Below, one piece after another: positions 47,265 to 63,198 of a stretch of DNA of 64,000 bases (within the stretch, counting starts at the first letter, position 1; every line of letters begins with the position of its first letter). Origin of the DNA: Desulfosediminicola ganghwensis. Its GTDB lineage: Bacteria; Desulfobacterota; Desulfobulbia; Desulfobulbales; Desulfocapsaceae. The stretch spans positions 1,759,001-1,823,000 of the forward strand of contig NZ_CP050699.1 in the NCBI RefSeq assembly GCF_005116675.2, written 5' to 3'. The notes under the pieces were generated by a model. It saw nothing but the letters and a program-made list of their open reading frames with translations, ran no database searches and was not told where the DNA came from. A program made the translations under genes and the position numbers.

Positions 47265-47300
47265 TTGTGCATGCATAGTGCGCGGTTCATGCATGCAACA
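47265..47300 (+). promoter_or_regulatory. palindromic upstream activating site candidate
   Basis: TTGTGCATGCAT (47265-47276) and ATGCATGCAACA (47289-47300) form an inverted repeat, 10 of 12 bases matching, about 73 bases upstream of the sigma-54 -24 element. Spacing and symmetry fit an enhancer site for the sigma-54 activator encoded at 52.2 kb. A related half-site (GGTTGCATGAT) lies at 47247-47257. Confidence 0.6.
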
Positions 47301-47370: not shown

Positions 47371-47388
47371 TTGGCACGTGATGTGCTT
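47371..47388 (+). promoter_or_regulatory. sigma-54 promoter candidate for the formate/hydrogen operon
   Basis: TTGGCACGTGATGTGCTT has the invariant GG (47373-47374) and GC (47385-47386) with exactly 10 bases between them, matching the -24/-12 sigma-54 consensus TGGCACG-N4-TTGC except for one base. Transcription would start near 47398, about 80 bases before the formate dehydrogenase ATG. Confidence 0.75.
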
Positions 47389-47479
47389 ATATCACACCGT
47401 CGTGCAGTTGTGTGCAATGCGGCAATAAGTGCTTGTGTCCGTAAAATTGGTGTCCCCGTTATGCAATGAAGAGAAGACT

Positions 47480-49540
47480 ATGAAGAAAACACTGACAACG
47501 TGCCCGTACTGTGGTTCGGGTTGCACGTTTTTTTTGGAAGTTGAAGCTGGTACCATTTCAGGCGTGACCCCGAATTGCAATGGCTCGGTAAATAATGGGG
47601 CGCTCTGCTCCAAGGGTCATTTTGGTACGGATTTTGTGCAAAGCAGGGACCGGTTGACAACGCCCCTTATCAGGAAAAACGGTGTCCTCACTCCTGTCGG
47701 CTGGCGGGAGGCGTATAGCTATACGGCGGAACGATTTTTAGATGTTGTAAATAAGCACGGCGGCAAAAGTGTTGCAGGCTTCAGTTCGGCCAGGTGTACA
47801 AATGAGGAAAACTATCTTTTCCAGAAAATGTTGAGAGCCGCGCTGGGAACCAACTCGGTTGACCATTGTGCCCGCCTCTGACACGCTCCCACAGTGGTCG
47901 GTCTGACCACGACTCTGGGCAGCGGCGCCATGACCAATTCCATTGCAGAACTCGATGAGATGGGACCCGGTGACACCATTTTCGCCATCGGCACCAACAC
48001 CACGGAATGTCATCCTGTAATCGGCGTTGCCATGCTGCGTGCGGTGAGGCGCGGCACCCGCCTGGTGGTGGCGGACCCGCGGGCGACGACGCTGGCGCAA
48101 AAAGCCGATGTCTGGCTCCGCCTGGAGCCGGGCACCGATGTCGCGTTGCTGAACGGGATCGGCCAGATCATTGTCGAGGAAGGGCTTGAAAACGCCCAAT
48201 TCATTTCCAGCCAGACTGAAAACTTTCAAGGGTACAGGGAGCATCTGCAACAGGTCAGTATCTCCGAGGTGGAGTCGATAACCGGAGTGGCAAAAGAACT
48301 GGTGGCGGCCGCGGCAAGAATCATAGGGGAATCTGCCAATGTCGCGACCTACTATACCATGGGGGTGACCCAGCATACCTCCGGGGTAGATAATGTGCTG
48401 GCGGTATCGAACCTTGCGCTATTGACCGGCAATATCGGCAGGCCCAAGACCGGGGTAAACCCGCTGCGCGGTCAGAACAATGTGCAGGGGGCCTGTGACA
48501 TGGGGGCCTTGCCCGATGTTCTGCCCGGTTACCAGAAGATCACTGACCGCGCGGTTCGTGAAAGGTTTGCCGATGCCTGGGGGGGGGGACTCCCTGAACA
48601 TGAGGGGCTGACCATACCTTCGGTCTTTTCGGCAATCGAGTGCGGCGAGGTGAAAGCGCTCTATATCTTCGGGGAGAACCCCATGCGGAGTGATCCCGAT
48701 ATCAATCATGTTCGCCACTGTCTTGAAAAAGCAGACTTTCTGGTAGTGCAGGATATCTTTTTAACGGAAACGGCCCAGCTTGCCGACGTGGTATTGCCGG
48801 GAGCCTCATTTGCCGAAAAAGACGGCACATTCACCAGCACCGAGCGAAGGGTGCAGCGGGTCCGCAAGGCGATTGAACCGGTTGGTACCAGCAAGGCGGA
48901 CTGGCAGATATTCAGCGAGCTTATGCAGGCACTTGGCCATAAAGCGGCGTATACGCATCCCGAGGAGATTTTTGATGAGATGCGAAGCCTTACGCCGGGA
49001 TATAGAGGGATAAGCTATCAACGGCTGGAAAACGAATCGCTGCAGTGGCCCTGTCTGGATGAAGATCATCCGGGCACACCGATTTTACACGTGGGAGGAG
49101 CCATTCGCGGCACGGCCCGGTTTGAACCGACACGTTACCGGCCACCGGCGGAACTGCCGGATAAAGACTACCCCCTGAAGCTGACCACCGGCCGAGTGGT
49201 GGCGCATTATCACACCGGCACCATGACCCGTCGCTGCTGGGGGCTGGAAGGGGTGGCTCCCCACGAGCAGGTGGAGATACATCCCGGGGACGCCCTGTCC
49301 CTTGATATCGTTGACGGAGATCCTGTGCGGGTGGAGTCCCGGCGGGGTACGGTGGAAGCGGTGGCCAGGGTGACAGATGTCGTCGGTAAAGGCCTGGTAT
49401 TCATGACATTCCATTATAGCGAGAGTTCAGCCAATATGCTGACCAACAGCGCAGCCGATCCGGTAACACAGACCCCGGAGCTGAAAATCTGTGCGGTAAA
49501 GGTAACAAAATTGACCAATGAACTGCATGTTTGCAGTTGA
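47480..49540 (+). CDS. fdhF: selenocysteine formate dehydrogenase catalytic subunit (FdhF type)
   Basis: This is a cytoplasmic molybdenum/tungsten bis-MGD formate dehydrogenase of 686 residues that interconverts formate and CO2. The single N-terminal [4Fe-4S] cluster is bound by Cys8, 11, 15 and 43, followed by SKG with the conserved Lys45. An in-frame UGA at 47879-47881 falls exactly at the active-site position (DHCARL-U-HAP), followed by the conserved His, so residue 134 is selenocysteine and the gene is not broken. The downstream part keeps the same frame (GENPMRSDPDINH, STERRVQRV, TGRVVAHYHTGTMTRR). There is no Tat signal. The start ATG 47480 follows GAAGAGAAG. It heads an operon with two HycB-like ferredoxins and an [FeFe] hydrogenase. 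A run of ten G lies at 48579-48588. Confidence 0.95.
47879..47918 (+). promoter_or_regulatory. bacterial SECIS-like element for UGA recoding
   Basis: Starting 12 bases after the in-frame UGA, GTGGTC (47894-47899) pairs with GACCAC (47905-47910) around a GGTCT loop. The loop sequence matches the GGUCU of the E. coli fdhF SECIS that binds SelB. This supports selenocysteine insertion at 47879. Confidence 0.8.
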
Positions 49541-49559
49541 AGGAACCTGAAGAGTTACG

Positions 49560-50168
49560 ATGAAGAACTACAGTTTAAACAGTTTTGTGGTGGCTGATCC
49601 GGATAAATGTATCGGCTGCCGGGTGTGCCAGATAGCCTGTTCGGCGGCACATGCAGATGGAGATCGTGCGCTCACGGTGGGCAGTATGAAAAATCCTTTC
49701 CAGCCGCGTTTACACCTTATGCGCCATCGCTACGGTTATGCCCCGGTGCAGTGTCGCCACTGTGAGGGTGCTCCATGCGCCAACAGCTGTCAGGTTGCCG
49801 CCATAATCCAGAAAGAGGGTGTCATCCTGGTGGATGAAGATAAATGCATGGGCTGCAAGACCTGCCTGATTGCCTGCCCCTTCGGCGCCTTGGAAATGGC
49901 TCCTGTCTACAGAGACGGCAAAGCGGTGGAACAAAATTTTTATCTGGACCGGGAGGGAACCGTTCAGGCCGCTGGAGCAGAGCACGCCAAGCATCGCTAT
50001 GTGGCAACGAAATGTGATCTCTGCCGCGACAGCGACCGGCAGCCCGCCTGCGTGGCGAATTGCCCGCAGCAGGCTCTGGGGTTGATAGATCCCGGTCAGC
50101 ACCGGGCACAGCGCATGAGTGCAGCGGCAACAGGACTGGCGAAAATGAGCACGCATCGTAACAGATGA
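49560..50168 (+). CDS. HycB-like ferredoxin subunit with four [4Fe-4S] clusters
   Basis: The 202-residue protein has sixteen cysteines in four [4Fe-4S] groups: CIGCRVCQIAC, CRHCEGAPCANSC, CMGCKTCLIACP and CDLC...CVANC. This is the HycB/FdhB-type electron-wire subunit. It lies 19 bases after the formate dehydrogenase and 80 bases before the hydrogenase, so it probably passes electrons between the two active sites, as HycB2 does in the hydrogen-dependent CO2 reductase. A short basic C-terminal helix (RMSAAATGLAKMSTH) extends past the last cluster. Confidence 0.9.
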   Translation: MKNYSLNSFVVADPDKCIGCRVCQIACSAAHADGDRALTVGSMKNPFQPRLHLMRHRYGYAPVQCRHCEGAPCANSCQVAAIIQKEGVILVDEDKCMGCKTCLIACPFGALEMAPVYRDGKAVEQNFYLDREGTVQAAGAEHAKHRYVATKCDLCRDSDRQPACVANCPQQALGLIDPGQHRAQRMSAAATGLAKMSTHRNR

Positions 50169-50248
50169 GCTGTGCAGGCCGGACGATTACAGGCGGTTAT
50201 GCCGCTTTAGTGAAAGAACACAGTACGAATTTTCAATGAGATACAGTT

Positions 50249-51628
50249 ATGACTGAATCAATTGTTTCAATCGATAGCGAGTTGTGTACCGGCTGCGGCA
50301 GATGCAAGGATATCTGCCCGGTCGGTGCCATCAGCGGTGAGCCGGCTGAGCCTCACCGAATAGCCGCATCCAGTTGTATAGTGTGCGGTCAATGTGTGCA
50401 GGTGTGCAGCGGTTTCGATTCCTCCCTTAAGGAGTATCCCACCGGCAGGCAGCAGCGTCTCCGGCAAAGAGGCATGCTCGACTCGGTGTCAGAGCCCCTT
50501 TTTGCCGCGCATTACCGGGGGGATATCCACGCCCTGCTTGCAGCCCTTGAAGATGGCAGCACCTCAACCTTCGTGCAATGTGCGCCAGCGGTGCGCGTCG
50601 CCCTGGGTGAGGAGTTCGGCATGGGCTATGGCGCGCTTACTCCGGGCAAACTGGCCGCAGCCCTTCGCGCGCTGGGGTTTGACCGGGTCTATGATACAAC
50701 TTTTGCCGCGGATCTCACCATCATGGAAGAAGGGGCGGAACTTATAGAACGCATCCAGGGCAAGGGGCGGCTGCCGATGTTTACCTCATGCTGTCCCGGC
50801 TGGGTGAAGTTTATCGAAGACCAGCACCCCGATCTGCTAGAGAATATGTCCAGCTGCAAGTCGCCGCAGCAAATGGCGGGTACCCTGTTCAAAACCTATG
50901 GTGCCGGGGTGGATAAGGTTGATCCCGCCTCGATCTTCAGTGTGGCGGTCATGCCCTGTACCGCCAAGAAATTTGAATGTGCCAGGCCCGAGATGGATGC
51001 CAGCGGCCACCGTGACGTCGATCTGGTCATAACCACCAGGGAGCTGGCCCAGCTTATCAAACATAAGGGTTTGGATTTTCTCGGTCTGGACGATGAACCG
51101 TTCGACAACCCGCTGGGCTGTTATTCCGGGGCCGGTAATATTTTCGGCACCACCGGCGGAGTGATGGAAGCGGCTCTGCGGAGCGCCTGCGAGGTGCTTA
51201 CCGGGGTTCCCCTGGGGGAGATCGAGCTGGAATATGTGCGGGGTGGTGAAGGTCTGCGCTATGCGGATATCGTCCACCAGGATCTTGAGTTGCGGGTCGC
51301 TATTGTGGCAGGTCTGGCCAACGTTCGTCGTTTGCTGGATGAGGTGCGGCGCGGTGAGGCGGATGTGCATTTTGTTGAGGTGATGTGCTGTCCCATGGGT
51401 TGTGTGAGTGGTGGCGGCCAACCCAAGCCGTTGTTGCCGGCTCAGCATCTCGAAGCCCATGCAGGGCGCAAGTCCGGCCTGTATTGTCATGACAAGAAGC
51501 TTGCCGTGCGCAAATCCCATGACAACCCTCAGGTGAAAAAGCTGTATGCGGATTTTCTGGGTGAACCGCTGGGCCATGAGTCGCACAGGCTGCTGCATAC
51601 CGATCATACCAGCAGGAGGCGGGCATGA
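50249..51628 (+). CDS. [FeFe] hydrogenase, HDCR (HydA2-like) catalytic subunit
   Basis: The 459-residue enzyme has an N-terminal pair of [4Fe-4S] clusters (Cys13/16/19/23 and Cys43/46/49/53) and a full H-cluster domain. Motif L1 is TSCCPGW (about 179-185), L2 is MPCTAKK (about 235), and L3 is EVMCCPMGC followed by GGGQP (from 377). The C terminus has the small-subunit-like segment (KSHDNPQVKKLY...RLLHT). No NuoG-like [2Fe-2S] domain is present, unlike the second hydrogenase at 61.4 kb. Its place between two HycB-like ferredoxins after formate dehydrogenase matches the hydrogenase of hydrogen-dependent CO2 reductases or soluble formate hydrogenlyases. The stop overlaps the next start (ATGA). 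Confidence 0.93.
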   Translation: MTESIVSIDSELCTGCGRCKDICPVGAISGEPAEPHRIAASSCIVCGQCVQVCSGFDSSLKEYPTGRQQRLRQRGMLDSVSEPLFAAHYRGDIHALLAALEDGSTSTFVQCAPAVRVALGEEFGMGYGALTPGKLAAALRALGFDRVYDTTFAADLTIMEEGAELIERIQGKGRLPMFTSCCPGWVKFIEDQHPDLLENMSSCKSPQQMAGTLFKTYGAGVDKVDPASIFSVAVMPCTAKKFECARPEMDASGHRDVDLVITTRELAQLIKHKGLDFLGLDDEPFDNPLGCYSGAGNIFGTTGGVMEAALRSACEVLTGVPLGEIELEYVRGGEGLRYADIVHQDLELRVAIVAGLANVRRLLDEVRRGEADVHFVEVMCCPMGCVSGGGQPKPLLPAQHLEAHAGRKSGLYCHDKKLAVRKSHDNPQVKKLYADFLGEPLGHESHRLLHTDHTSRRRA

Positions 51629-52206
51629 ACGCATTTGTTGTCGCTGATGCAGGGTTGTGTATAGGTTGCCAGGCCTGCATGATCGCCTGTGCCAAAGCGC
51701 ATAGCCCTGCAGGAAGCCCTGAAAGTGGCCAGACAACAGGAGCAATGGCGGCTGGCCGTGTATTTCAATCCAGAATCACCCTGGTGCGTACCGCAGAGGT
51801 TACTGTACCCGTGCAATGCAGGCATTGTGAGAATTCCCCTTGCGCCAATGTCTGCCCGGTGGATGCCATCGTGCAGAAAGACGCGTGCATAGATATTGTC
51901 GAAAAGAGCTGTGTAGGTTGTAAAAGCTGTATGCTGGCCTGTCCGTACGGGGCCATTCAGGTAGTTGCGGATGATACCGTCTGTGGAAAACAAGCGGTTG
52001 TAGAATTTCGGGAAAAAACCGGTCAGGACACTCTTCATGTTGTGGTTAAATGCGATCTCTGTTTTGATCATGGTTCTCCGGCCTGTGTCAAGATCTGCCC
52101 GGCGGGGGCGCTGAGGCTGGTGGAAGGACGTCAGCTCAGTGAGAGTATCGTGTCGAAACGCAGGGCCGCCGCGGGCAGGATGGGGCGGATAGGTAGTCAG
52201 CATTAA
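51625..52206 (+). CDS. HycB-like ferredoxin subunit (second copy)
   Basis: The 193-residue protein is a paralogue of the ferredoxin at 49.56 kb, with the same four-cluster layout: CIGCQACMIAC, CRHCENSPCANVC, CVGCKSCMLACP and CDLC...CVKICP. Both share an N-terminal FVVAD strand. The start ATG overlaps the hydrogenase stop by 4 bases, so the two are translationally coupled. In Acetobacterium HDCR the HycB3 subunit bears a C-terminal helix that builds filaments; here a basic tail (SKRRAAAGRMGRIG) follows the last cluster and could serve similarly, which is inference. Confidence 0.9.
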   Translation: MNAFVVADAGLCIGCQACMIACAKAHSPAGSPESGQTTGAMAAGRVFQSRITLVRTAEVTVPVQCRHCENSPCANVCPVDAIVQKDACIDIVEKSCVGCKSCMLACPYGAIQVVADDTVCGKQAVVEFREKTGQDTLHVVVKCDLCFDHGSPACVKICPAGALRLVEGRQLSESIVSKRRAAAGRMGRIGSQH

Positions 52207-52215
52207 GGAAGAAGA

Positions 52216-53598
52216 ATGTCGCAGAACAGAGATATATCCCGTCAGGATTCAGCGCAAAAAGGAGAACTCGTCAGGGTGTTTCTCGCCGATGGCACTATCA
52301 CCTACGTGAACAGTGTCTGCTGTGATTTTTACGAGAAAACGATGGATGAGATGATAGGCAGCAACCTGGCGGCCTATCTCTCCGAAGACGAGCGGGAAGA
52401 TATTATCGCGGCCATTTTTTCCATGAGCCAGGACAACCCTGAGGTTATAACCCGACCGCGATTTACCGGCAAAGACGGCAAATCCCGCTATCTCGAATAT
52501 CGCAACCGGGGAATATTCCAGGCCGACGGCACCATAGTGGCGTACCAGTCGGTGGGAGTGGTCCTCGCCGAAGAACAACGGCTGGTGCCTGTTCCCGGGA
52601 CCATGGAAGTGCCATCGAAGGTGGCGGGCAGTCCCCATACCTCCGGAAGAAGCCGGGAAAATGCACCCGGCTTTTTTTCCGAGCAGATGCGTGAGATCAG
52701 GCGTCAGGCCGAGATGTATCACCACGACCGTTCGATTCCGGTGTTGATCGAAGGGGAGACCGGGGTGGGTAAGGAAATCATAGCCAAACTCATCCATTTC
52801 GGGGGCACCACCTCACTGCGCCCATTTGTCGATATCAACTGTACCGCCATCACCCCATCACTTTTTGAGAGTGAGCTGTTTGGGTATGATTCCGGAGCGT
52901 TTACCGGCGCGGATGGCCGTGGAAAACAGGGCAAGCTCGATTGCGCCAGGGGCGGCACGCTCTTTCTGGATGAGGTGGCGGAGATTCCTACTGAACTCCA
53001 GGCTAAACTTCTCAGGGTGCTGGAGGAGAAAGCCTTTTACCGGGTGGGTGGCCTGCGCCGCATACATACCGATATCCGGGTGGTTGCGGCCACCAATGTC
53101 GACTTAGACAGTCGTGTCGCAGCCGAGACCTTTCGTCGGGATCTGTACTATCGCCTGCGTGTCGGCCATATCCGCATTCCGGCCTTGCGGGAACGGCGGG
53201 AGGATATCCTGCCCCTGGCCGGGCTTCTGCTGAACCAGTCTGCCCGAAAGCGTAATAAGAGGTTTGCGGATATCAATGACGGGGCCGCCCGCCTGCTGCT
53301 CGATCACCCGTGGCCCGGGAACATTCGTGAATTGAAAAACCTCATGGAATGGGTCACGTTCATGTTTGATGCCCGGCACCTTGCTGCTGAACATATCGCC
53401 GATCGTCTGACCGTTCCCGCCCATTACCAGCCCGCTGTACCGGCTCTTTTGCCGTCAGGCAGAGGCCGGAGTTCAGTCCGGATCGAAATTTCGAAAGCTG
53501 AGGTGCTGGCAGCCATTGATCAATGCCGGGGCAATAAGACCCAAGCTGCCCGCAGGCTGGGGATTTCCATTCGTACCCTCTATAACCGACTGATGTAA
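52216..53598 (+). CDS. sigma-54-dependent activator with PAS domain
   Basis: The 460-residue regulator has an N-terminal PAS domain at about residues 15-120 (FLADGTITYVNSVCCDFY), and an AAA+ domain with Walker A GETGVGKE, the sigma-54 contact loop GAFTGA and Walker B LFLDE. A Fis-type helix-turn-helix closes the protein (NKTQAARRLGISIRTLYNRL). It lies 9 bases after the second HycB-like gene, in the operon it probably controls through the promoter at 47371-47388. The PAS region has no GAF domain as FhlA has, so the signal may differ from formate. The ligand is unknown. Confidence 0.92.
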   Translation: MSQNRDISRQDSAQKGELVRVFLADGTITYVNSVCCDFYEKTMDEMIGSNLAAYLSEDEREDIIAAIFSMSQDNPEVITRPRFTGKDGKSRYLEYRNRGIFQADGTIVAYQSVGVVLAEEQRLVPVPGTMEVPSKVAGSPHTSGRSRENAPGFFSEQMREIRRQAEMYHHDRSIPVLIEGETGVGKEIIAKLIHFGGTTSLRPFVDINCTAITPSLFESELFGYDSGAFTGADGRGKQGKLDCARGGTLFLDEVAEIPTELQAKLLRVLEEKAFYRVGGLRRIHTDIRVVAATNVDLDSRVAAETFRRDLYYRLRVGHIRIPALRERREDILPLAGLLLNQSARKRNKRFADINDGAARLLLDHPWPGNIRELKNLMEWVTFMFDARHLAAEHIADRLTVPAHYQPAVPALLPSGRGRSSVRIEISKAEVLAAIDQCRGNKTQAARRLGISIRTLYNRLM

Positions 53599-53623
53599 TG
53601 TTCTTGATATGTAAAGGAATTTT

Positions 53624-55033
53624 ATGATAGTGCATGCCGATCCATCCTACAATTTTATCGACCCTGAGCAGATCTCACGCATTATTGACGCAGCTCGACA
53701 ACCGGCTCCGTCACAGGTGCGTGAGATCATCGCCAGGGGGCTTGAGAAAAAAGGCCTCTCTTTATCAGATGTTGCTGTCTTGCTGCAAAGTGACGATACC
53801 GAACTGGATGCGGAGATTTTTGCGGCCGCCAGACGGATAAAGCAGGAAATCTATGGCAACCGGATAGTGCTGTTCGCCCCTCTGTATGTGAGCAACGAAT
53901 GTGCCAATCAATGCAGTTACTGCGGCTTCAACGCGAAAAACAGCGAACTGGTACGAAAAACCCTGACCAGCGAAGAGATTGCCGGAGAAGTACGCGCTCT
54001 GGAAGACTGCGGGCAAAAACGATTGCTGCTCGTTTATGGCGAGCACCCGAAGATTACAGCGCAGTGGATCGCCGATAGCGTTGCCACGGTATACGAGACG
54101 CTCTCATACAAAAGCGGCGCCATCAGACGGGTGAATATCAACTGTGCGCCGCTGGACGTTGCCAGCTTCAAGTTCCTGCATCAGGCGGGAATAGGCACCT
54201 ACCAGTGTTTTCAGGAGACCTACCATCAGCCGACCTATGAGAAGATGCACCTGGCCGGGAACAAGACCGATTACCTGTGGCGTCTGCAGGCCATGGACCG
54301 GGCGCAGCAGGCAGGCATCGATGACGTGGGCATCGGCGTGCTGTTTGGCCTGTATGACCATCGTTTCGAGTTGCTGGCCATGCTGAGGCATGCTGAGGAG
54401 CTGGAGAGTCGTTGGGGTGCGGGGCCGCATACCATCTCTTTCCCGCGTATGGAACCCGCCCTGGGTTCCGAGCTTTCCCAGGCTCCCCCGTACCTGATCT
54501 CCGACCATACGTTCAAGAAAATTGTGGCTATTACCAGGCTGGCGGTGCCGTATACCGGAATAATCATGAGTACCCGCGAGAGTGCCACGATGCGAACCGA
54601 ATTACTGCAGCTCGGGGTATCCCAGATGAGCGCTGGCTCAAGCACCTCGCCGGGCGGATACAGTGACGGTTCTTTGGACGAGGTTACCAGTCAGCAGTTC
54701 TCTTTGGGGGATCATCGCCAGCTGGATGATATTGTATTAGATCTGGTGCGGCAGGGGTTTACCCCGTCCTGGTGCACGGCCTGTTACCGAACGGGCCGGA
54801 CCGGCGAGCATTTCATGACTCTGGCCAAAGAGGGCTTCATCCAGAATTTTTGCCACCCCAATGCCTTGCTCACCCTCAAGGAATACCTCAATGATTATGG
54901 CGGAACCGCGACTGTCGAGGCGGGCAAACACCATATCGAGGGCGAGCTGGAAGCGTGTCAGCTGAAAGTCAAACCTCAACTTGAGGCCAAACTTGCCAAA
55001 ATCGAGGCTGGTGAGCGTGACCTCTATGTGTGA
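53624..55033 (+). CDS. hydG: [FeFe] hydrogenase maturase HydG
   Basis: HydG is a radical SAM tyrosine lyase that makes the CO and CN ligands of the H-cluster. The 469-residue protein has the radical SAM motif CANQCSYC (about Cys93/97/100), and the C-terminal second-cluster motif beginning CTAC near residue 384 with its distant Cys in FCHPN, which binds the Fe(CO)2CN-producing cluster. Length and sequence (NAKNSELVRKTLTSEEI) fit. It is 25 bases after the activator on the same strand as the hydrogenase subunits, while hydE and hydF are on the other strand. Confidence 0.96.
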   Translation: MIVHADPSYNFIDPEQISRIIDAARQPAPSQVREIIARGLEKKGLSLSDVAVLLQSDDTELDAEIFAAARRIKQEIYGNRIVLFAPLYVSNECANQCSYCGFNAKNSELVRKTLTSEEIAGEVRALEDCGQKRLLLVYGEHPKITAQWIADSVATVYETLSYKSGAIRRVNINCAPLDVASFKFLHQAGIGTYQCFQETYHQPTYEKMHLAGNKTDYLWRLQAMDRAQQAGIDDVGIGVLFGLYDHRFELLAMLRHAEELESRWGAGPHTISFPRMEPALGSELSQAPPYLISDHTFKKIVAITRLAVPYTGIIMSTRESATMRTELLQLGVSQMSAGSSTSPGGYSDGSLDEVTSQQFSLGDHRQLDDIVLDLVRQGFTPSWCTACYRTGRTGEHFMTLAKEGFIQNFCHPNALLTLKEYLNDYGGTATVEAGKHHIEGELEACQLKVKPQLEAKLAKIEAGERDLYV

Positions 55034-55127: not shown

Positions 55128-56348
55128 TCAGCCCGGCTGGTGCAGTTCCCTGTAGAGTGAAATCATCTCGTCAATGGGTTCCAGTGCCCTGGGCATCAGC
55201 CCGTTGGCCCAGGCCAGAAACATGCCGAAATTGATCACCGGAATCCCCTGCGCCTCAAATTGTCGCATGCGGTAGAGGATGGCTTTGCGGGAGAGCATAC
55301 AGCCGCCGCAATGGAGAATGAGATCATAGGAGGCGAGGTCGTCGGGTAGCTTTCTGGTGTGACAGAATTCCACCTGGGAGCCGACCACCTGTCTGAATAA
55401 CCGTGGAATTTTCACCGTGCCGAGATCATCGGCCTGCCGGTGATGGGAGCATGCCTCCATCACCAGTACCCTGCCGTTTTCCGAGAAATTCTCCAGCACT
55501 TTCAAACTCTTGATCAGCCATTTTGGGTCGGCTTTTTTTCTGGCAAAGAGCAGGGAAAATGAGGTGAGCGGCTGGTCCGGCGGCAGATCCGCCGCCACCT
55601 TGCTGAACGCCTGACTATCGGTGATGACCAGGGCCGGACGTATGCCGAGGTTGTTATAATAACTGCGCAACTCCCTCTCTTTTACCACCAGCGCCGCACA
55701 ATCCCGGTCGAGCAGATCACGGATGGTTTCCACCTGGGGAAGTATCAGGCGTCCCCTGGGGGCGGCCAGATCGACAGGCGTGACCAGGAGTACAAGATCC
55801 CCTTCCTGTACCAGCCCCTGAACCGGAGTAAGTTCCTGTTCCAGGAGATGCTCCAGCGATTCCATTCTCCTGATCAGCTCCAGCCCGCTATCAAGGCTGT
55901 TGTTATTGACGGAAACAGAGTTCGCTCCTTGAAAGAACCTCTCTTTTTCCGGGTGGACGGCCTGATCTGCAAAAGTCATCACCCCCAGCCAGGGGCGGGT
56001 ATTTGTCCTGAGCCAGTTGAGAAAATCCAGCTCCGCCTGCTCGGGCGGAAGGTTGGCGGGGGTGGCAAAAAGAATCAGGTCTGCCGTCTCCAGTCTCTCG
56101 CTGGTTTTACTTACCCGCAATTCCCCGAGATCCCCTTCATCGTCAAAACCTGCGGTATCGGTGACTGCGCACATGCCCAGTTTGCCGAGTTCTATCTTTC
56201 TGGTGACCGGGTCGGTGGTGGTGCCCGGCGTGGTGGAGATTATCGCTTCATCCTTCTGGAACAGGTTGTTCAGCAGGCTCGATTTTCCGGCATTTCGTAC
56301 ACCGGCTATTACAATACGGCACAGTTCCGCAAGGGGAGTGGTGGTCAT
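55128..56348 (-). CDS. hydF: [FeFe] hydrogenase maturation GTPase HydF
   Basis: HydF is the scaffold that assembles the 2Fe precursor and delivers it to apo-hydrogenase. The 406-residue protein has an N-terminal GTPase domain (G1 GVRNAGKSS, G2 TPGTTTDPV, G3 DTAGF) and a C-terminal Fe-S site, with Cys and His in ACSHH and the downstream HCGGC. I place the start at ATG 56348, which shares its A with the stop of the lyase gene upstream (TAATG), so the two are translationally coupled. The frame is open a further 31 codons upstream, inside the lyase gene. Confidence 0.95.
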   Translation of the reverse strand: MTTTPLAELCRIVIAGVRNAGKSSLLNNLFQKDEAIISTTPGTTTDPVTRKIELGKLGMCAVTDTAGFDDEGDLGELRVSKTSERLETADLILFATPANLPPEQAELDFLNWLRTNTRPWLGVMTFADQAVHPEKERFFQGANSVSVNNNSLDSGLELIRRMESLEHLLEQELTPVQGLVQEGDLVLLVTPVDLAAPRGRLILPQVETIRDLLDRDCAALVVKERELRSYYNNLGIRPALVITDSQAFSKVAADLPPDQPLTSFSLLFARKKADPKWLIKSLKVLENFSENGRVLVMEACSHHRQADDLGTVKIPRLFRQVVGSQVEFCHTRKLPDDLASYDLILHCGGCMLSRKAILYRMRQFEAQGIPVINFGMFLAWANGLMPRALEPIDEMISLYRELHQPG

Positions 56349-57703
56349 TATCGAAAATCCTTTTTCATGGTGGTAAGTGTCACGGGGGAAGACCAGTTGT
56401 CGAGAAAGGCCCTGTCCAGTTCTGTGTGCGCCTCCAGCCAATCGGCCAGTTCCTGCACAGTCGAGATCCTCGCCGCTTTGATTTGCGGCAGCAGCTCTTT
56501 CAGTCCATGGTAGCCCAGCGCCGCTCTCAAGGTGTTAATGAGGGCGGGGCTTGAGGTGAGGTTTGCTTCAAGTCGTTCCCTGTCCGGCACCAGGGCCTCC
56601 ATGAGCGGGCCTGAGGCGGTGGTGAGCGCTTTTTCGAGTCGGCTGGCAAGCCGTATCATCTGCTCGGCAAGAAAGGGCAGGTTGGCGTTAAGCTGAAGCT
56701 GACCCGACCTGGCGTAGAGGCCGATGAGGTCAGCGGTGGAGGAACACTCCATGGCGAGGCCGCGTATCAGTTCCAATAGAATCGGGTTGGCCTTGTCCGG
56801 CATAATCGTTGACCCGTAGGCAACTTCATGATGGCGGATTTCGCGGCAGAATGACGAGCTGTAGAGGATCAGGTCAGAGGCAATCTTGTACAGATTGTCG
56901 GCACAGAGCCCCATGCCGCGGGCGCATTCGGCCAGGTTGTCCACATGGGCCACCTGGTCGCAGAGATTCTGGCTGCGGCAGAGCGGTAGGCCGGTGAGCC
57001 GCTGCAGGTGGCGCTCGGCCGCAAAGACATAGGCTCTGGGGGCCGAAAAACCGGTACCGAGCGCGGTGCCGCCCAGGGGGATGGTACGCAAGCGCTCTTT
57101 CAGCTTGTGCAGGCGCCAGCGGTCGCGCTCGATTGGTCCTGCCCAGGCACCGAAAACCTGCCCCAGGGTGATGGGCAGGGCGTCCTGCATTTCCGTTCGG
57201 CCGCACATCAGCCACTGCTCGTAGAGTTGTTCCCGTTTTACCAGTTGTGCCTGCAGGTGGATGACCTGCTGTTCGATGCGCTCTAGGAAGCGGTAGCTCA
57301 TCAGGATGACACTGGTGGGGAAAATGTCATTGGTCGATTGGAACCGGGCCAGATGCTCCAGCGGGTCGAGCCGTTCATGCGGCGACTGCCCTGCGCGACA
57401 CTCTGCGGCCCGGTTGACATAGGAGGCCAGCACTTCGCAGATGTTCATATGCAGGCTGGTCCCCGCTCCGCCCTGGGCCAGGTCGAGGGGGAAATGTTCA
57501 TTCAGCTCTCCGGAGATGACTTTTGCCGCCGCCTCCTGCAGCAATTCGAAGAGCTCTGCCGGATAGAGACTGCATGTCTCCTGCTGGGCCAGTATGGCGG
57601 CAAGTTTGACCTGAGCCAGCGCCTGGATCATCGGCCCGGGTGTCTGGCCGGGGCCGAGATAGCTGAGTGCTTTTGAGGTTTCCGGTCCGTATAAAGATTT
57701 CAT
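56348..57703 (-). CDS. aspartase/fumarase-family lyase linked to H-cluster maturation
   Basis: This 451-residue member of the aspartase/fumarase superfamily has the aspartase-like segments GGAGTSLHMNICEV, STNDIFPTS and GRTEMQDALPITLGQ, and the signature loop GSTIMPDKANP. The family releases ammonia or an amine from aspartate-like substrates to form fumarate. It lies between hydE and hydF and overlaps the hydF start by one base, so it should be made together with the maturases. A reasonable inference is ammonium supply for the bridging azadithiolate amine of the H-cluster. Ordinary amino-acid catabolism is also possible, since the sequence alone does not fix the substrate. Confidence 0.85.
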   Translation of the reverse strand: MKSLYGPETSKALSYLGPGQTPGPMIQALAQVKLAAILAQQETCSLYPAELFELLQEAAAKVISGELNEHFPLDLAQGGAGTSLHMNICEVLASYVNRAAECRAGQSPHERLDPLEHLARFQSTNDIFPTSVILMSYRFLERIEQQVIHLQAQLVKREQLYEQWLMCGRTEMQDALPITLGQVFGAWAGPIERDRWRLHKLKERLRTIPLGGTALGTGFSAPRAYVFAAERHLQRLTGLPLCRSQNLCDQVAHVDNLAECARGMGLCADNLYKIASDLILYSSSFCREIRHHEVAYGSTIMPDKANPILLELIRGLAMECSSTADLIGLYARSGQLQLNANLPFLAEQMIRLASRLEKALTTASGPLMEALVPDRERLEANLTSSPALINTLRAALGYHGLKELLPQIKAARISTVQELADWLEAHTELDRAFLDNWSSPVTLTTMKKDFR

Positions 57704-57758: not shown

Positions 57759-58796
57759 TCAGATTTGCTGGTTACTTGAAGACCATGTCGGGGTGTCACC
57801 CCGGGTAAAGCTGAGTTTTTTGCCAAGAGTTGCGAGGGTGGGAACCAGACCCTGAACCGCACCTTCGATATCTGTTTCATCGAGGCAGATCTTGCCGGGA
57901 TACAAAGCGTAATCTTTACGAAAATCCTTGGTGGTGATATTGGGCATCAGGACATTGGCACCAGCCGCAATCATCTGCTCACGACCATCCGCGGCAAGAG
58001 AGCCTGCGGAGGTGGTGGCGGGCAGGTGTGCCTGTGGCAAAGCCAGCCGGAGCAGGGCGGTTGCCCGAATGGTGGCTTCGAGTCCCTGCTGTCTGCTGCT
58101 GGCAAGTGGTGTCTGCTGGTGGGGAATAAAGGGGCCGACCCCGACCATGTCGAGTTCGAGTTCCTGGCTGAGCTGAATATTGTTCAACTCTGTTTCAGGC
58201 GTCTGGCCGGGAAGGCCGGTCATGAATCCGGAGCCTGTCTGCAGCCCGGCAGCCTGCACGGCTCGCACTGCATCGAGCCGTTCGGCGAGCGATTGCCCGT
58301 AATGCAGTCGCGCATATAACTCCGGGTCGGAGGTCTCAAAGCGGATAAGGTATCTGTCGGCACCGGCACTGGCCATAGAGCGGTACTCCGCCGGTGTGCG
58401 ATTGCCGCAGCTGAGGGTGACGGCTGCGGCCGGTCCGGTAAACGCCTTGATGCGTTCCACAAGCCTGCAGATACGGTCGGTATGCCACTCCGGGTCTTCA
58501 CCTCCCTGCAGAACAAACGTCGATAATTGCAACTCGCGGCCACGTGCCACCAAGGCCAGGATTTCCTCTTCTGCGAGGCGGTAGCGCCGAATGGCCTGGT
58601 TGCCGCGCCTGATTCCGCAGTAGAGACAGTTGCAGTTACAATGATTGGTGAATTCAATCAAGCCGCGAAGCAGTACGCTCTTGCCCATTGTTTGCTGACA
58701 GGTTGCAAAACCACGTTGAACCAACTCTTCGGTCGGGGTGGTAAAGAAATGATATCGTATCTGGTGCCGGCTTGCTCCGGGAGAATTGGGCTTCAT
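57759..58796 (-). CDS. hydE: [FeFe] hydrogenase maturase HydE
   Basis: HydE is a radical SAM enzyme that builds on the HydG product toward the azadithiolate-bridged diiron unit. The 345-residue protein has the radical SAM motif CNCNCLYC (Cys53/57/60) and the family LLRGLIEFTN before it, SGFMTGLPGQT in the middle, and LMPNITTKDFRKDYALYPGK near the end. It is the first gene of the minus-strand hydE-lyase-hydF operon and diverges from the second hydrogenase pair across a 566-bp region. The start ATG 58796 has only a weak ribosome site. Confidence 0.94.
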   Translation of the reverse strand: MKPNSPGASRHQIRYHFFTTPTEELVQRGFATCQQTMGKSVLLRGLIEFTNHCNCNCLYCGIRRGNQAIRRYRLAEEEILALVARGRELQLSTFVLQGGEDPEWHTDRICRLVERIKAFTGPAAAVTLSCGNRTPAEYRSMASAGADRYLIRFETSDPELYARLHYGQSLAERLDAVRAVQAAGLQTGSGFMTGLPGQTPETELNNIQLSQELELDMVGVGPFIPHQQTPLASSRQQGLEATIRATALLRLALPQAHLPATTSAGSLAADGREQMIAAGANVLMPNITTKDFRKDYALYPGKICLDETDIEGAVQGLVPTLATLGKKLSFTRGDTPTWSSSNQQI

Positions 58797-59362: not shown

Positions 59363-61378
59363 ATGGCAAAAGTGATTTTTGGGGCCTGGGATAACCGGGT
59401 CATTGACAACCGGGAAAAGAAAATCTTTGAGATTGAGGATTATCCCGAATTCACCAATTTTGATGAATTCAATCCGGGTAATCCCGTCAAGGCGTTTTTT
59501 GGTGGTCATGGTTTCTTTATTTTTGAAAAAAACGTCAACCTACTCGACGCGGCGTACCAGCATATGGGGCGGGTAACCGAAGAATCCTGCGGCAAGTGTA
59601 CTCCATGCAGAGTTGGCACGCAGATCATTACCACCAGACTGAAGCGGCTGATTGATAACGGTTGTGGTAAAGACGGTCGGTTTAGCAAAACCGAAATTAC
59701 CGAACGGATCGAAGAAATCCGCGAGATTGCCGAGCAGGTTCGCACCACCTCGTTGTGCGGACTGGGGCAGACCGCCACTGTGGCCTTGCTGGCGATGATC
59801 CGCTATTTCGAAGAGGAACTGATACGTGAAGCCGCCGAGGGGGTGTGTTCCCTGCCGCAGAAAGGTACGACCTATGTCTCTGCGCCATGTATCGAGGCAT
59901 GTCCCTCAAGGGTCGATGTGCCCCGCTATATCGATTACGTCAAAGACGGCAAGTTTACCCATTCCCTGGGGGTTATTCTGCAGAAATACCCGATGGCCGC
60001 GACCTGCGGCAGGGTGTGTGTGCGGTTCTGTGAAATAGCTTGCCGCAGAACTCAGGTCGATGAAGCCGTGGGCATCAAGATCCTGAAACGTTTTGTCGCA
60101 GATCACGAAAAGGATCTTATCAACCAGTGGTTCGACTCCTACAAACCTGTGGAGACGAAAGACCCTGAACTGAAAATTGGCGTAATCGGTGCTGGTCCAG
60201 CAGGTATTTCCGCCGCATATCACCTGCTGCTCAGAGGCTACAAAGTCGATATTTTCGAGGCCAAGTCTGTGCCGGGCGGCATGGCCTACACCGGGATTCC
60301 CGAATATCGCTTGCCGAAGAGTGTATTGAGTAAAGAGGTATCGATTATCGAGAGCCTCGGTGGCCGGATATTCTATGACCAGAAAATGGGCCGTGATTTT
60401 ACCATGAGTGACCTGATGTCACGGGGCTATAAGAGTGTATTCCTTGCTGTTGGCGCTCATAAAGGCAAACAGATCGGGGTGAGCGGCGAAGATGTGAACC
60501 TTGAAGGCTACGATTTCGGTGTTGATTTTCTACTTCGTCTCAACCGCGACCATATAGATCAGGGATTGCCGTTGAAGATGGGCAAAAAGGTTGTGGTGGT
60601 CGGGGGTGGAAACGTGGCCATGGACTGTGCCAGATCCTCACTCCGCCTGGGCGTTGAAGAGGTTCACCTGGTGTATCGCAGGAGCCGGGCGGAAATGCCG
60701 GCCGACCATGAAGAGGTGGAAGCTGCGGAAAAAGAGGGTGTCCAATTCCATTATCTGACTAATCCCGTGCAGATCTTCAGTGAAGACGGCAAGGTATGTG
60801 GCATGGAGCTTATCAGGATGGAGCTTGGCGAACCGGATGAGAGTGGCAGACGAGGTGTCTCCCCTGTTGCCGGCTCTGAATTTACCCTTGATGTGGATCA
60901 GGTAATTCCGGCAATAGGACAGGCTGTGGAGCTTGGTTTCGTAACACCGGAAGAGGATCATATCGAATTCAGCCGCTGGGGCACCATCAAGTGCAATGAT
61001 GACACCCTCATGACCAGCCGCAAAGGTGTTTTCGGCGGTGGTGATGCGGTCACCGGACCAGCGACCCTTGTTCAGGCCATGGCCCAGGGAGAGCGGGGCG
61101 CCAGGAGCATGGCAGACTATTTGACGTTTGGCCGGGTTCATTTCGATCCGATGAGGCGCATGAGCCAGTTGGTGGCGGACGTTCAACCGATGATCTCCAC
61201 AGGAATCAATATCCCGGTCAAGCATGAGTACCGGGTGAAACTGAGAGAGCTGGACCCGGAAGTTCGCAAGCGCCTTTTTGAAGAGGTTGAAAAGCCTATC
61301 TCCGTCGAGGAGGCATACCGGGAAGCGGATCGCTGTATGCGTTGTTACCGGGTTTATTCGGTTATTACAGAGCAATAA
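59363..61378 (+). CDS. NuoF-tail/GltD fusion, SfrB-like NAD(P)H subunit of the second hydrogenase
   Basis: The 671-residue protein joins two modules. Residues 1-150 are the C-terminal part of NuoF (ESCGKCTPCRVGTQ and SLCGLGQTATVALL, binding one [4Fe-4S]); the FMN/NADH-binding part of NuoF is missing. Residues 165-670 form a GltD-type flavoprotein, with cysteine-rich CIEACPSRVDVPRYI, FAD GAGPAGISAA and NAD(P) GGGNVAMDCARS. This architecture matches SfrB of soluble ferric reductases and subunits of glutamate-synthase-linked hydrogenases. Its stop overlaps the next reading frame, so it pairs with the [FeFe] hydrogenase that follows. The likely role is to exchange electrons between NAD(P)H and that hydrogenase. 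Confidence 0.88.
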   Translation: MAKVIFGAWDNRVIDNREKKIFEIEDYPEFTNFDEFNPGNPVKAFFGGHGFFIFEKNVNLLDAAYQHMGRVTEESCGKCTPCRVGTQIITTRLKRLIDNGCGKDGRFSKTEITERIEEIREIAEQVRTTSLCGLGQTATVALLAMIRYFEEELIREAAEGVCSLPQKGTTYVSAPCIEACPSRVDVPRYIDYVKDGKFTHSLGVILQKYPMAATCGRVCVRFCEIACRRTQVDEAVGIKILKRFVADHEKDLINQWFDSYKPVETKDPELKIGVIGAGPAGISAAYHLLLRGYKVDIFEAKSVPGGMAYTGIPEYRLPKSVLSKEVSIIESLGGRIFYDQKMGRDFTMSDLMSRGYKSVFLAVGAHKGKQIGVSGEDVNLEGYDFGVDFLLRLNRDHIDQGLPLKMGKKVVVVGGGNVAMDCARSSLRLGVEEVHLVYRRSRAEMPADHEEVEAAEKEGVQFHYLTNPVQIFSEDGKVCGMELIRMELGEPDESGRRGVSPVAGSEFTLDVDQVIPAIGQAVELGFVTPEEDHIEFSRWGTIKCNDDTLMTSRKGVFGGGDAVTGPATLVQAMAQGERGARSMADYLTFGRVHFDPMRRMSQLVADVQPMISTGINIPVKHEYRVKLRELDPEVRKRLFEEVEKPISVEEAYREADRCMRCYRVYSVITEQ

Positions 61379-61395
61379 TGGAGGCCCGGACGAAA

Positions 61396-63198
61396 ATGAA
61401 AGCATTCATCAACAGTAAGGAAATCGAGTTCAGGGAAAACGACACCGTATTGGCTGCGGCCAAATCTCACGGTTTTTTTATCCCTTCACTGTGTGAGTTG
61501 GCAGACATCTGCCACGCTCCCGGCACCTGCAGGGTCTGCCTGGTGCAGATTCAGCGGCCAGGCAGCGAAATCACCCAGATTGTTACCTCCTGTAATACGC
61601 CACTGGAAGAGGGTATGCGGGTGCTGACCAGGACACCGGAACTCCGCAGGATGCAGCGCCTTCAGGTGGAGTTGCTGCTGGCGGATCACAATCAGGACTG
61701 CGCGTCCTGTATCCGGCATGGCAATTGCGAGCTTCAGGATGTTGCCCAGTTCGTCGGTCTTGAACTTACCCGGTACAGATACCCCCACTTCTTCAAGCAG
61801 AGAACCCAGGACAAGTCGTCAAGCTGTGTTGTCCGGGATATGAGCAAATGTATCCGTTGTTTCAGGTGTCTCAGCGTTTGCCGCGAGATTCAGGGTGTTG
61901 ACGCGCTGGTCATCAGCAAGAAGGGGCTGGAGACCGAGATAGGGGTGCGCGACAGTCTGCCCCTCAACGCGTCGGACTGTGTCGGTTGCGGACAGTGCAC
62001 CCTGGTGTGTCCTGTAGGAGCGTTGGCGGAGAAAAACGATATCGAGCAGGTAATAGACTATCTGTATGACCCAGAAATTGTCACGGTATTTCAGGTCGCA
62101 CCGGCCGTTCGTACCGCCCTTGGCGAAGATTTCGGCTTTGCGGCGGGCGAGAATGTGCAGGGGCAGCTGGTGGGCGCGTTGCAGAAGCTGGGTGCTGACA
62201 TCATTCAGGATACCAATTTCACCGCTGATCTGGTGATAATGGAAGAGGGCAGTGAGCTGCTGCAGCGGGTGCAGAATGGCGGCACAATGCCGATGTTTAC
62301 CTCCTGCTGCCCCGGCTGGGTGAACTTTGCGGAGAAGAATCACCCCGAGCTGCTGCCGAACATTTCTTCCGCCAGGTCTTCCCAGCAATGTTTCGGCGTG
62401 CTGGCCAAAACCTACATGGCGGAGCAGATGGAAAAAGATCCGGCGAAAATGCGGGTAATATCCATTATGCCCTGTACCGCCAAAAAGGGAGAAGCACAAC
62501 GGGCTGAATTCAAGGGCGAATATGGGCGAGATGTGGATGTGGTCCTGACCACCAGAGAGTTCAGTCTGCTGCTGAAGAGGGAAGGGATTCATCTGCGGGA
62601 CGTGACCCCGTCTGAGTTTGACGCCCCGTTGATGTCGTCCTACAGTGGAGCTGCCGCCATTTTTGGTACCACCGGCGGGGTGATGGAGGCCGCGGTGCGC
62701 ACCGTCTATTATGTGTTGAATCAGCAGGAGTTACCGCAGATTGTCTTCACTCCGTTGCGTGGTATGGAAAACATCCGCGTGGCGACGGTGCAGGTTACGC
62801 CGGACCGGGAGCTTACCCTGGCGGTTGCACATAGTTTGAAGGCTGCAGAAACACTGGTTCAGTCGATACAATCCGGAGAGTTGCACTGCGATTTCGTGGA
62901 GATCATGGCCTGTCCCGGCGGCTGTATGTGCGGAGGCGGCCAGCCGAGAACCAAGCATTCCTATAACGCCTCAGGGTTGGCCCGACGCAAAGGCTTGTTT
63001 GCCATTGACGAGAAAGCGACAGTGCGACAGTCACACAAAAACCAGATGGTGCAATATCTCTATGAACAGTTTATGGGGGAACCGCTTAGCGAAAAATCCC
63101 ATCACCTGCTGCATACCACCTACAGCGACCGAAAGCTGCAGGGTACGCAGACAATGACCATGGAAGATATCTGGCAGGAGGTGGAAGAGCGCATCTGA
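61396..63198 (+). CDS. hydA: [FeFe] hydrogenase HydA with NuoG-like N terminus
   Basis: The 600-residue enzyme has the full clostridial-type layout. A [2Fe-2S] domain has Cys33, 45 and 48 (CHAPGTCRVC), a His-ligated [4Fe-4S] follows (HNQDCASCIRHGNCELQ), then two further [4Fe-4S] (CIRCFRCLSVCR, CVGCGQCTLVCP). The H-cluster domain comes last: TSCCPGW near 302, MPCTAKK at 358, EIMACPGGC and GGGQP from 502. A C-terminal small-subunit-like segment (QSHKNQMVQYLY...HLLHT) closes it. I chose ATG 61396, with GGAGG 11 bases upstream; ATG 61378 overlaps the previous stop (TAATG) and is an alternative. It forms a two-subunit pyridine-nucleotide hydrogenase with the SfrB-like protein; no HydC-type subunit is nearby. 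Confidence 0.94.
   Translation: MKAFINSKEIEFRENDTVLAAAKSHGFFIPSLCELADICHAPGTCRVCLVQIQRPGSEITQIVTSCNTPLEEGMRVLTRTPELRRMQRLQVELLLADHNQDCASCIRHGNCELQDVAQFVGLELTRYRYPHFFKQRTQDKSSSCVVRDMSKCIRCFRCLSVCREIQGVDALVISKKGLETEIGVRDSLPLNASDCVGCGQCTLVCPVGALAEKNDIEQVIDYLYDPEIVTVFQVAPAVRTALGEDFGFAAGENVQGQLVGALQKLGADIIQDTNFTADLVIMEEGSELLQRVQNGGTMPMFTSCCPGWVNFAEKNHPELLPNISSARSSQQCFGVLAKTYMAEQMEKDPAKMRVISIMPCTAKKGEAQRAEFKGEYGRDVDVVLTTREFSLLLKREGIHLRDVTPSEFDAPLMSSYSGAAAIFGTTGGVMEAAVRTVYYVLNQQELPQIVFTPLRGMENIRVATVQVTPDRELTLAVAHSLKAAETLVQSIQSGELHCDFVEIMACPGGCMCGGGQPRTKHSYNASGLARRKGLFAIDEKATVRQSHKNQMVQYLYEQFMGEPLSEKSHHLLHTTYSDRKLQGTQTMTMEDIWQEVEERI

Follow-up and report, generated by a model that had tools for sequence, protein, structure and literature searches.

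A six-gene operon of the sulfate reducer Desulfosediminicola ganghwensis very probably encodes a soluble complex of the hydrogen-dependent CO2 reductase (HDCR) type, which would interconvert H2 + CO2 and formate. It lies on the plus strand of the window analyzed here, a stretch of 64,000 nucleotides (positions 1,759,001 to 1,823,000, forward strand, of a single 5,653,142-bp contig), to which the positions below refer unless another locus or the genome is named. The genes are fdhF (47480-49540), for the catalytic subunit of a selenocysteine formate dehydrogenase (TIGR01591, 836.5 bits against a cut-off of 666); hycB-a (49560-50168), for a four-cluster polyferredoxin; hydA2 (50249-51628), for a group A4-type [FeFe] hydrogenase with two N-terminal 4Fe-4S clusters; hycB-b (51625-52206), for a second four-cluster polyferredoxin, with a 4-base overlap with hydA2; a gene (52216-53598) for a PAS-AAA-Fis sigma54 activator (Pfam PAS, Sigma54_activat and HTH_8), the predicted activator of the operon; and hydG (53624-55033), for an H-cluster maturase (TIGR03955, 518 bits, cut-off 312). 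The intergenic gaps are 9 to 81 bases, and because this spacing is small, we infer that the six genes are read as one transcript. The same order is found in a Desulfobulbaceae metagenome-assembled genome (MAG), SZUA-575 (L010; L numbers denote compared loci), and, with a split activator, in Halodesulfovibrio (L070); hydG follows the activator in both.

A first-pass annotation of this DNA had described a selenocysteine fdhF, a four-cluster HycB, a two-cluster [FeFe] hydrogenase and a second HycB, and each is where it was said to be. The run of elements was taken to end at 52206, and in this respect the description needs extending, as the co-directional unit, promoter included, spans 47372-55033 and goes on to the activator and hydG. 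Open frames and profile searches revealed neither a membrane hydrogenase nor a flavin/NAD subunit within the HDCR gene cluster, in keeping with the earlier statement that membrane Hyc/Ech subunits are lacking; fdhD is likewise missing from the cluster, as had been noted, and is present in the genome at 5.219 Mb.

Hydrogenase and polyferredoxins

Each of the four subunits has as its best PDB match a chain of 7qv7, the HDCR of Thermoanaerobacter kivui, and the hydrogenase gives the strongest contrast. HydA2, with two N-terminal 4Fe-4S motifs and the H-cluster domains, matches chain 7qv7_D at 614 bits (E 2.2e-183), the next best PDB match being 384, and it aligns with T. kivui HydA2 over the whole length, nearly gap-free, at 58% identity. 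On these scores the HDCR match lies far beyond chance. Moreover, in a tree of 86 hydrogenase rows, HydA2 falls within a 69-row HDCR clade (support 100/100) that includes T. kivui, Acetobacterium, Clostridioides, Paenibacillus and Treponema; phylogeny against the acetogen HDCRs had been set beforehand as a refuting test, and with this placement the HDCR-type reading of the operon stands.

The two HycB proteins each have four cluster motifs with 16 cysteines in all, which do not vary across the 22 and 19 sequences aligned, and HycB-a is HycB4-like by best match (7qv7_B, 181.7 bits). C-terminal helices are predicted in both, at residues 178-200 of HycB-a and 168-192 of HycB-b (23-25 residues; low to moderate model confidence). 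HDCR filaments are mediated by the C-terminal helices of HycB3 and HycB4 (PMC10413684, available text), and the predicted helices are compatible with filament formation, though no proof of it. Fold searches with the HycB models also returned 7qv7 first, at a root-mean-square deviation of 14-19, and add little because the superposition is poor and the models are of low confidence.

From the gene set we infer that the four proteins form one complex. The pairwise distances of FdhF and HydA2 correlate across 47 sequence pairs (r 0.64; 0/2000 permutations as high), with one FdhF taken per locus and L060 and L108 omitted.

FdhF: selenocysteine and a separate branch

The fdhF frame is open only with read-through of a TGA at 47882-47884, which aligns with the active-site cysteine of T. 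kivui FdhF, and a SECIS_3 element is predicted on the plus strand at 47876-47934 (Rfam RF01989, 43.8 bits, E 1.1e-7). The genome encodes SelB (384.7 bits, cut-off 242) and tRNA-Sec (75.4 bits, cut-off 47). FdhF matches 7qv7_S at 748 bits, with the next best PDB chain at 695. Two more formate dehydrogenase-like genes with in-frame TGA are found at genome positions 2674501 and 5208949; from their long frames (938-948 aa) and score, our guess is that they are of the FdnG kind. A second FdhF-type formate dehydrogenase with in-frame TGA sits beside HdrA-like genes at about 3.129-3.138 Mb (L108, 6671-15896), and it is probably a heterodisulfide-reductase-linked enzyme; window FdhF is 51.3% identical to this paralogue.

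The phylogeny of FdhF, in a tree of 56 rows, supports the HDCR assignment in one respect and not in another. Window FdhF belongs to a clade (100/99) of six HDCR-linked FdhFs, with L010, L070, a Bacillota MAG (L013), Clostridium magnum (L014) and C. ragsdalei (L019), to which it is 61-73% identical; it lies outside the classical HDCR FdhF clade of 43 rows (100/100), at whose base stands T. kivui (96/93). Sister to the six (99/92) are the FdhFs of L023 and L025; their genes neighbor HDCR operons but lie on the other strand, and they adjoin a gene that matches the second hydrogenase of the window over 214 residues. Because the six are closer to one another in FdhF (identity 66% among themselves vs 45% to the rest) and hardly so in HydA2 (62% vs 59%), the comparison suggests an exchange of FdhF. 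The HydA2 proteins of L013, L014 and L019 are 72-73% identical to that of L011, while their FdhFs find a best match outside the six loci of just 53-54% (T. kivui); L011 FdhF is 42.6% identical to window FdhF. In approximately unbiased (AU) tests, neither a single origin of all HDCR-linked FdhFs (50 of the 56 rows; p-AU 0.07) nor a clade of the six loci on the HydA2 tree (p-AU 0.139) was rejected, and hence recruitment of FdhF more than once is not established.

Several points weigh against the HDCR reading. FdhF is just 52.5% identical to its T. kivui counterpart and 39-46% identical to the classical HDCR rows, and for this reason its interface with HycB may differ from that of the classical enzyme. 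HycB-b lacks a clear HycB3 assignment: its best PDB match is HycB4 (7qv7_B, 139 bits, vs 127 for HycB3, 7qv7_A), and assignment as HycB3 by tree failed, the HycB tree grouping it with L010 alone. The HycB models are of low confidence (mean predicted local distance difference test scores of 58 and 62). The SECIS_3 score is below the Rfam gathering score of 63, and a scan of the window at the gathering threshold gave no Rfam match. Finally, the available text on the type strain reports no hydrogen-dependent autotrophic growth (PMC8497536).

An alternative to a single four-subunit HDCR complex can be argued from the separate FdhF branch and from the HydA2-type genes of L066 and L012, which adjoin a Hyf-like membrane module in stretches where no fdhF is seen. 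We consider it unlikely: hydA2 stands between the two hycB genes, loci of Desulfobulbaceae, Desulfovibrionaceae and Bacillota carry the same set of four genes, and the distances of FdhF and HydA2 correlate as given above.

A predicted sigma54 circuit

The activator is found at the same position in L010. In its AAA-Fis part it shares 56-57% identity with response regulators that lie close to HDCR or A4 operons (L070, L013 and L066), and at most 49% with 54 further matches in its own genome; the recognition-helix region GNKTxAAxxLGI is common to all five proteins compared. L070, L013 and L066 have a two-component pair, a PAS histidine kinase and then a receiver-AAA-Fis protein (the architecture of the latter in L066 was judged from alignment), and the PAS domains of the window and L010 activators align with the kinase PAS of these pairs. 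The simplest reading is that the one-component activator consists of the joined outer parts of such a pair, its kinase and receiver having been lost; the direction of change would be from the pair to the single protein. That it responds to formate, H2 or redox state is a guess from operon content. The first-pass annotation had called an HDCR with its own activator unusual in a sulfur-cycle bacterium. The neighboring activator is confirmed, and other HDCR operons have it beside them too; the claim is weaker as regards HDCR in sulfate reducers, which was known (PMC6288185, available text). Weaker, too, is the annotation's suggestion that the complex may serve formate/H2 exchange with partners, given the lack of hydrogen-dependent autotrophic growth in the species description (PMC8497536, available text).

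A predicted sigma54 -24/-12 promoter (TGGCACG-N4-GTGCT) at 47372-47387, plus strand, ends 93 bases before the fdhF start. It scores 14 of 15 points on an ad hoc -24/-12 consensus and is the best plus-strand site of the window; one minus-strand site, inside hydG, scores higher (14.5). Comparable sites lie before fdhF in L010 (14) and L070 (13), before a transporter-first operon in L013 (15) and before a transporter-hydA2 operon in L066 (14); L014, whose stretch lacks an activator of this kind, reaches only 10. Among 51 fdhF upstream regions (450 bases each, one of 298; regions under 100 bases dropped), a score of at least 13 was reached in three, those of the window, L010 and L070, all activator-bearing. 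As a separate observation, a formate/nitrite-family transporter gene precedes the HDCR or hydA2 genes in L013, L014 and L066, by a Pfam match of 268.6 bits in L066 and by similar sequence only in L013 and L014.

Upstream of the promoter, two copies of the palindrome TGCATGCA (47268-47275 and 47290-47297), the only ones in the window, are predicted upstream activating sites. The 8-base core was picked by eye first and then tested: it occurs eight times in the 1115 bases that precede the promoters of the window, L010, L070 and L013 and is the only 8-mer common to all four regions, whereas none of 1000 dinucleotide shuffles gave any such 8-mer, and copies of TGCATGCA in the shuffles averaged 0.116 with a maximum of 2. 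Within the 51 fdhF upstream regions it is confined to the window, L010 and L070, the L013 copies lying farther upstream. A longer 10-base form, TTGCATGCAA, shows weak enrichment in the window and L010. A simple rule pairing site with activator is contradicted by L066, which has the activator family and no copy of TGCATGCA, and L014, a member of the FdhF clade, lacks both activator and site; L019, whose contig ends at fdhF, was excluded from this comparison. In the D. ganghwensis genome, paired copies of TGCATGCA are limited to two places, the HDCR operon and the interior of a tadA-like gene, and the latter pair is taken as chance. Among the papers listed in our literature searches, and in the available parts of PMC4641369, PMC6615313 and PMC12316311, we found no description of such an activator, site and promoter set for HDCR operons.

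Other hydrogenase modules in the genome

The genome has a six-gene Hyf-like (Ehr-type) module at 3.51 Mb that lacks the first NiFe cysteine motif, and in L066 and L012 a module of this kind is preceded by a HydA2 homologue. One could therefore imagine the soluble module docking on this membrane module, 1.7 Mb away, as an energy-conserving [FeFe] formate hydrogenlyase. This is very improbable in our view: the Hyf-like module is not near the HDCR operon, a sigma54-activator-like gene of its own neighborhood was seen by eye, and no site common to the two was found, given where the TGCATGCA pairs fall. The module itself (L143, 7473-14760; about 3.510-3.518 Mb) is accompanied by no hydrogenase or formate dehydrogenase gene among the open frames of 17 kb, judged by eye. 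In L066 (8986-17756) and L012 (9001-18325), the arrangement of an HDCR-type HydA2 gene ahead of the Hyf-like module hints at membrane-bound [FeFe] complexes; in the HyfG-like protein of L066, the first NiFe cysteine motif is, by eye, only partly retained.

A classic membrane formate hydrogenlyase (FHL-1/2) was rejected as a candidate. The cluster holds no [NiFe] partner, and genome-wide, PF00346 gives five matches in three genes, two Nuo-like and one Hyf-like, in which the first NiFe cysteine motif is lacking by eye.

Some 4 kb past hydG comes a GltD/NuoF-like gene (59363-61378), and after it the gene of a second [FeFe] hydrogenase, a longer one (61342-63198; A6 model 708 bits, below the cut-off of 765). 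With these as partners, the operon might encode a formate dehydrogenase/hydrogenase that is NAD(P)-linked or electron-bifurcating, as in Clostridium autoethanogenum, a proposal to which we give almost no credence: three opposite-strand genes separate the pair from the operon, the second HydA is of a different class, the operon has no flavin/NAD subunit, and tblastn finds no such genes in the L010 and L070 stretches (19.4 and 18.5 kb). An NADP-dependent electron-bifurcating Fdh-Hyt complex was rejected for want of a HytB-type flavin/NAD subunit in the operon. The pair at 59363-63198 is probably a separate NAD(P)-linked hydrogenase, and similar pairs occur in L074 and L076.

Between the operon and this pair, on the minus strand, are hydF (55128-56441; H-cluster maturation GTPase, TIGR03918, 448.7 bits, cut-off 325) and hydE (57759-58796; H-cluster maturase, TIGR03956, 324.8 bits, cut-off 254), with an aspartase/fumarase-like gene (56348-57703) sitting between them. 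A gene of this kind adjoins hydF in Paenibacillus HDCR loci (L021, L027-L030 and L073; in L029 no hydF appears before the locus end) and may be linked to H-cluster maturation.

Host and distribution

D. ganghwensis IMCC35004T is a sulfate reducer of the Desulfocapsaceae from tidal-flat sediment, with a circular chromosome of 5,653,142 bp and, as electron donors, acetate, ethanol, betaine, alanine, glycine and organic acids (PMC8497536, available text). Own-genome searches found dsrA (577.9 bits, cut-off 393) and a CdhC/acetyl-CoA synthase domain (234.6 bits). A 2018 list gives HDCR-like clusters in 18 organisms, and as five of these are sulfate reducers (Desulfotalea psychrophila, Desulfobacterium autotrophicum, Desulfovibrio alaskensis, D. 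magneticus and D. salexigens), the HDCR type was already known, sulfate reducers included; the five are sulfate-reducing Desulfobacterota with the same subunit set as the window, and the D. ganghwensis genome is absent from the list as available (PMC6288185), whose text states neither how those clusters are regulated nor to which FdhF branch they belong. Desulfotalea is also placed in the Desulfocapsaceae (PMC8497536), and HDCR genes are reported for the Adiutricaceae, another family of Desulfobacterota (PMC9137090), again in the available texts. Less expected are the operon's own switch and the separate FdhF branch.

Among relatives, hydA2 is patchy. Four of 58 genomes match at E <= 1e-100, two of them full-length (its own and L010, the sole other full-length relative match), and none of the three congeners searched matches at this threshold. 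Across the phylum, 26 of 395 genomes match at E <= 1e-120, and full-length HDCR-type HydA2 is found in four of these, its own and three members of a single family; in the remaining 22 the match is to longer hydrogenases, all but one aligning from query residue 80 onward. The operon genes have a GC content of 0.54-0.58, vs 0.489 for the genome; with the lack of a match in the congeners, this is a hint of horizontal acquisition, and no more than a hint because other genes of the window reach similar values (up to 0.575, and up to 0.60 for the hydE-hydF-aspA genes).

Proposed function

In the HDCR-type complex proposed here, HydA2 would split or make H2, electrons would run along the eight 4Fe-4S clusters of the two HycB proteins, and the selenocysteine FdhF would reduce CO2 to formate or oxidize formate, reversibly and without energy coupling; filaments may form through the HycB C-terminal helices. 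The PAS activator would turn the operon on via sigma54 under some formate, H2 or redox condition. Given a sulfate reducer with a second FdhF-type selenocysteine formate dehydrogenase beside HdrA-like genes and with acetyl-CoA synthase, the most likely role, in our view, would be that of an inducible formate/H2 equilibrator, formate hydrogenlyase-like or supplying formate for the Wood-Ljungdahl methyl branch, and not the main growth enzyme. Such an inducible role is also more probable than a growth-critical, CO2-fixing one, since no hydrogen-based autotrophic growth was seen, according to the available text of PMC8497536.

A broader proposal, which we put forward tentatively and at somewhat less than even odds, is that the operon represents a distinct HDCR subclass. 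Its FdhF, of a separate branch and possibly swapped onto a HydA2/HycB core, would often come together with a sigma54 circuit of its own (a PAS sensor, a -24/-12 promoter and TGCATGCA sites) in both Desulfobacterota and Bacillota. The single PAS-AAA-Fis protein of the window and L010 would then have arisen by collapse of an ancestral PAS kinase and response regulator, and the operon would be a natural formate/H2-responsive switch. HDCRs attract interest as fast catalysts for the storage of H2 in the form of formate, and the characterized examples named in the available parts of the cited literature are those of acetogens and C. beijerinckii. The selenocysteine FdhF from the other branch, in a sulfate reducer, offers a new natural HDCR variant for purification, and the common activator, site and promoter set offers a testable handle on what switches HDCR on.

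Comparison with known systems

A functional precedent outside the acetogens is that of Clostridium beijerinckii, whose FdhF/HydA/HycB1/HycB2 set is like that of the window; there the complex is soluble, was co-purified and works in both directions (PMC12905484). Unlike D. ganghwensis, C. beijerinckii is a non-acetogenic fermenter with the genes in two operons, and the available text mentions no sigma54 activator (PMC12905484). The HDCRs of T. kivui (PDB 7qv7) and Acetobacterium woodii share with the window an FdhF, a two-cluster HydA2, two four-cluster HycB proteins and the lack of any membrane or flavin subunit. Window FdhF differs from that of T. kivui in belonging to another branch and in carrying selenocysteine, which T. 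kivui FdhF does not have (PMC6288185, available text). Neither of these two acetogen systems is known to have, like the window, a sigma54 activator and hydG in the same run. The window presumably also differs from T. kivui in gene order, by a hycB downstream of hydA2. The E. coli formate hydrogenlyase operon is under a sigma54 activator as well, FhlA, which has GAF domains. Its selenocysteine FdhF and HycB-type protein have counterparts here, but its hydrogenase is a membrane [NiFe] enzyme, whereas that of the window is [FeFe] and soluble by prediction, with PAS in the activator in place of the GAF domains of FhlA.

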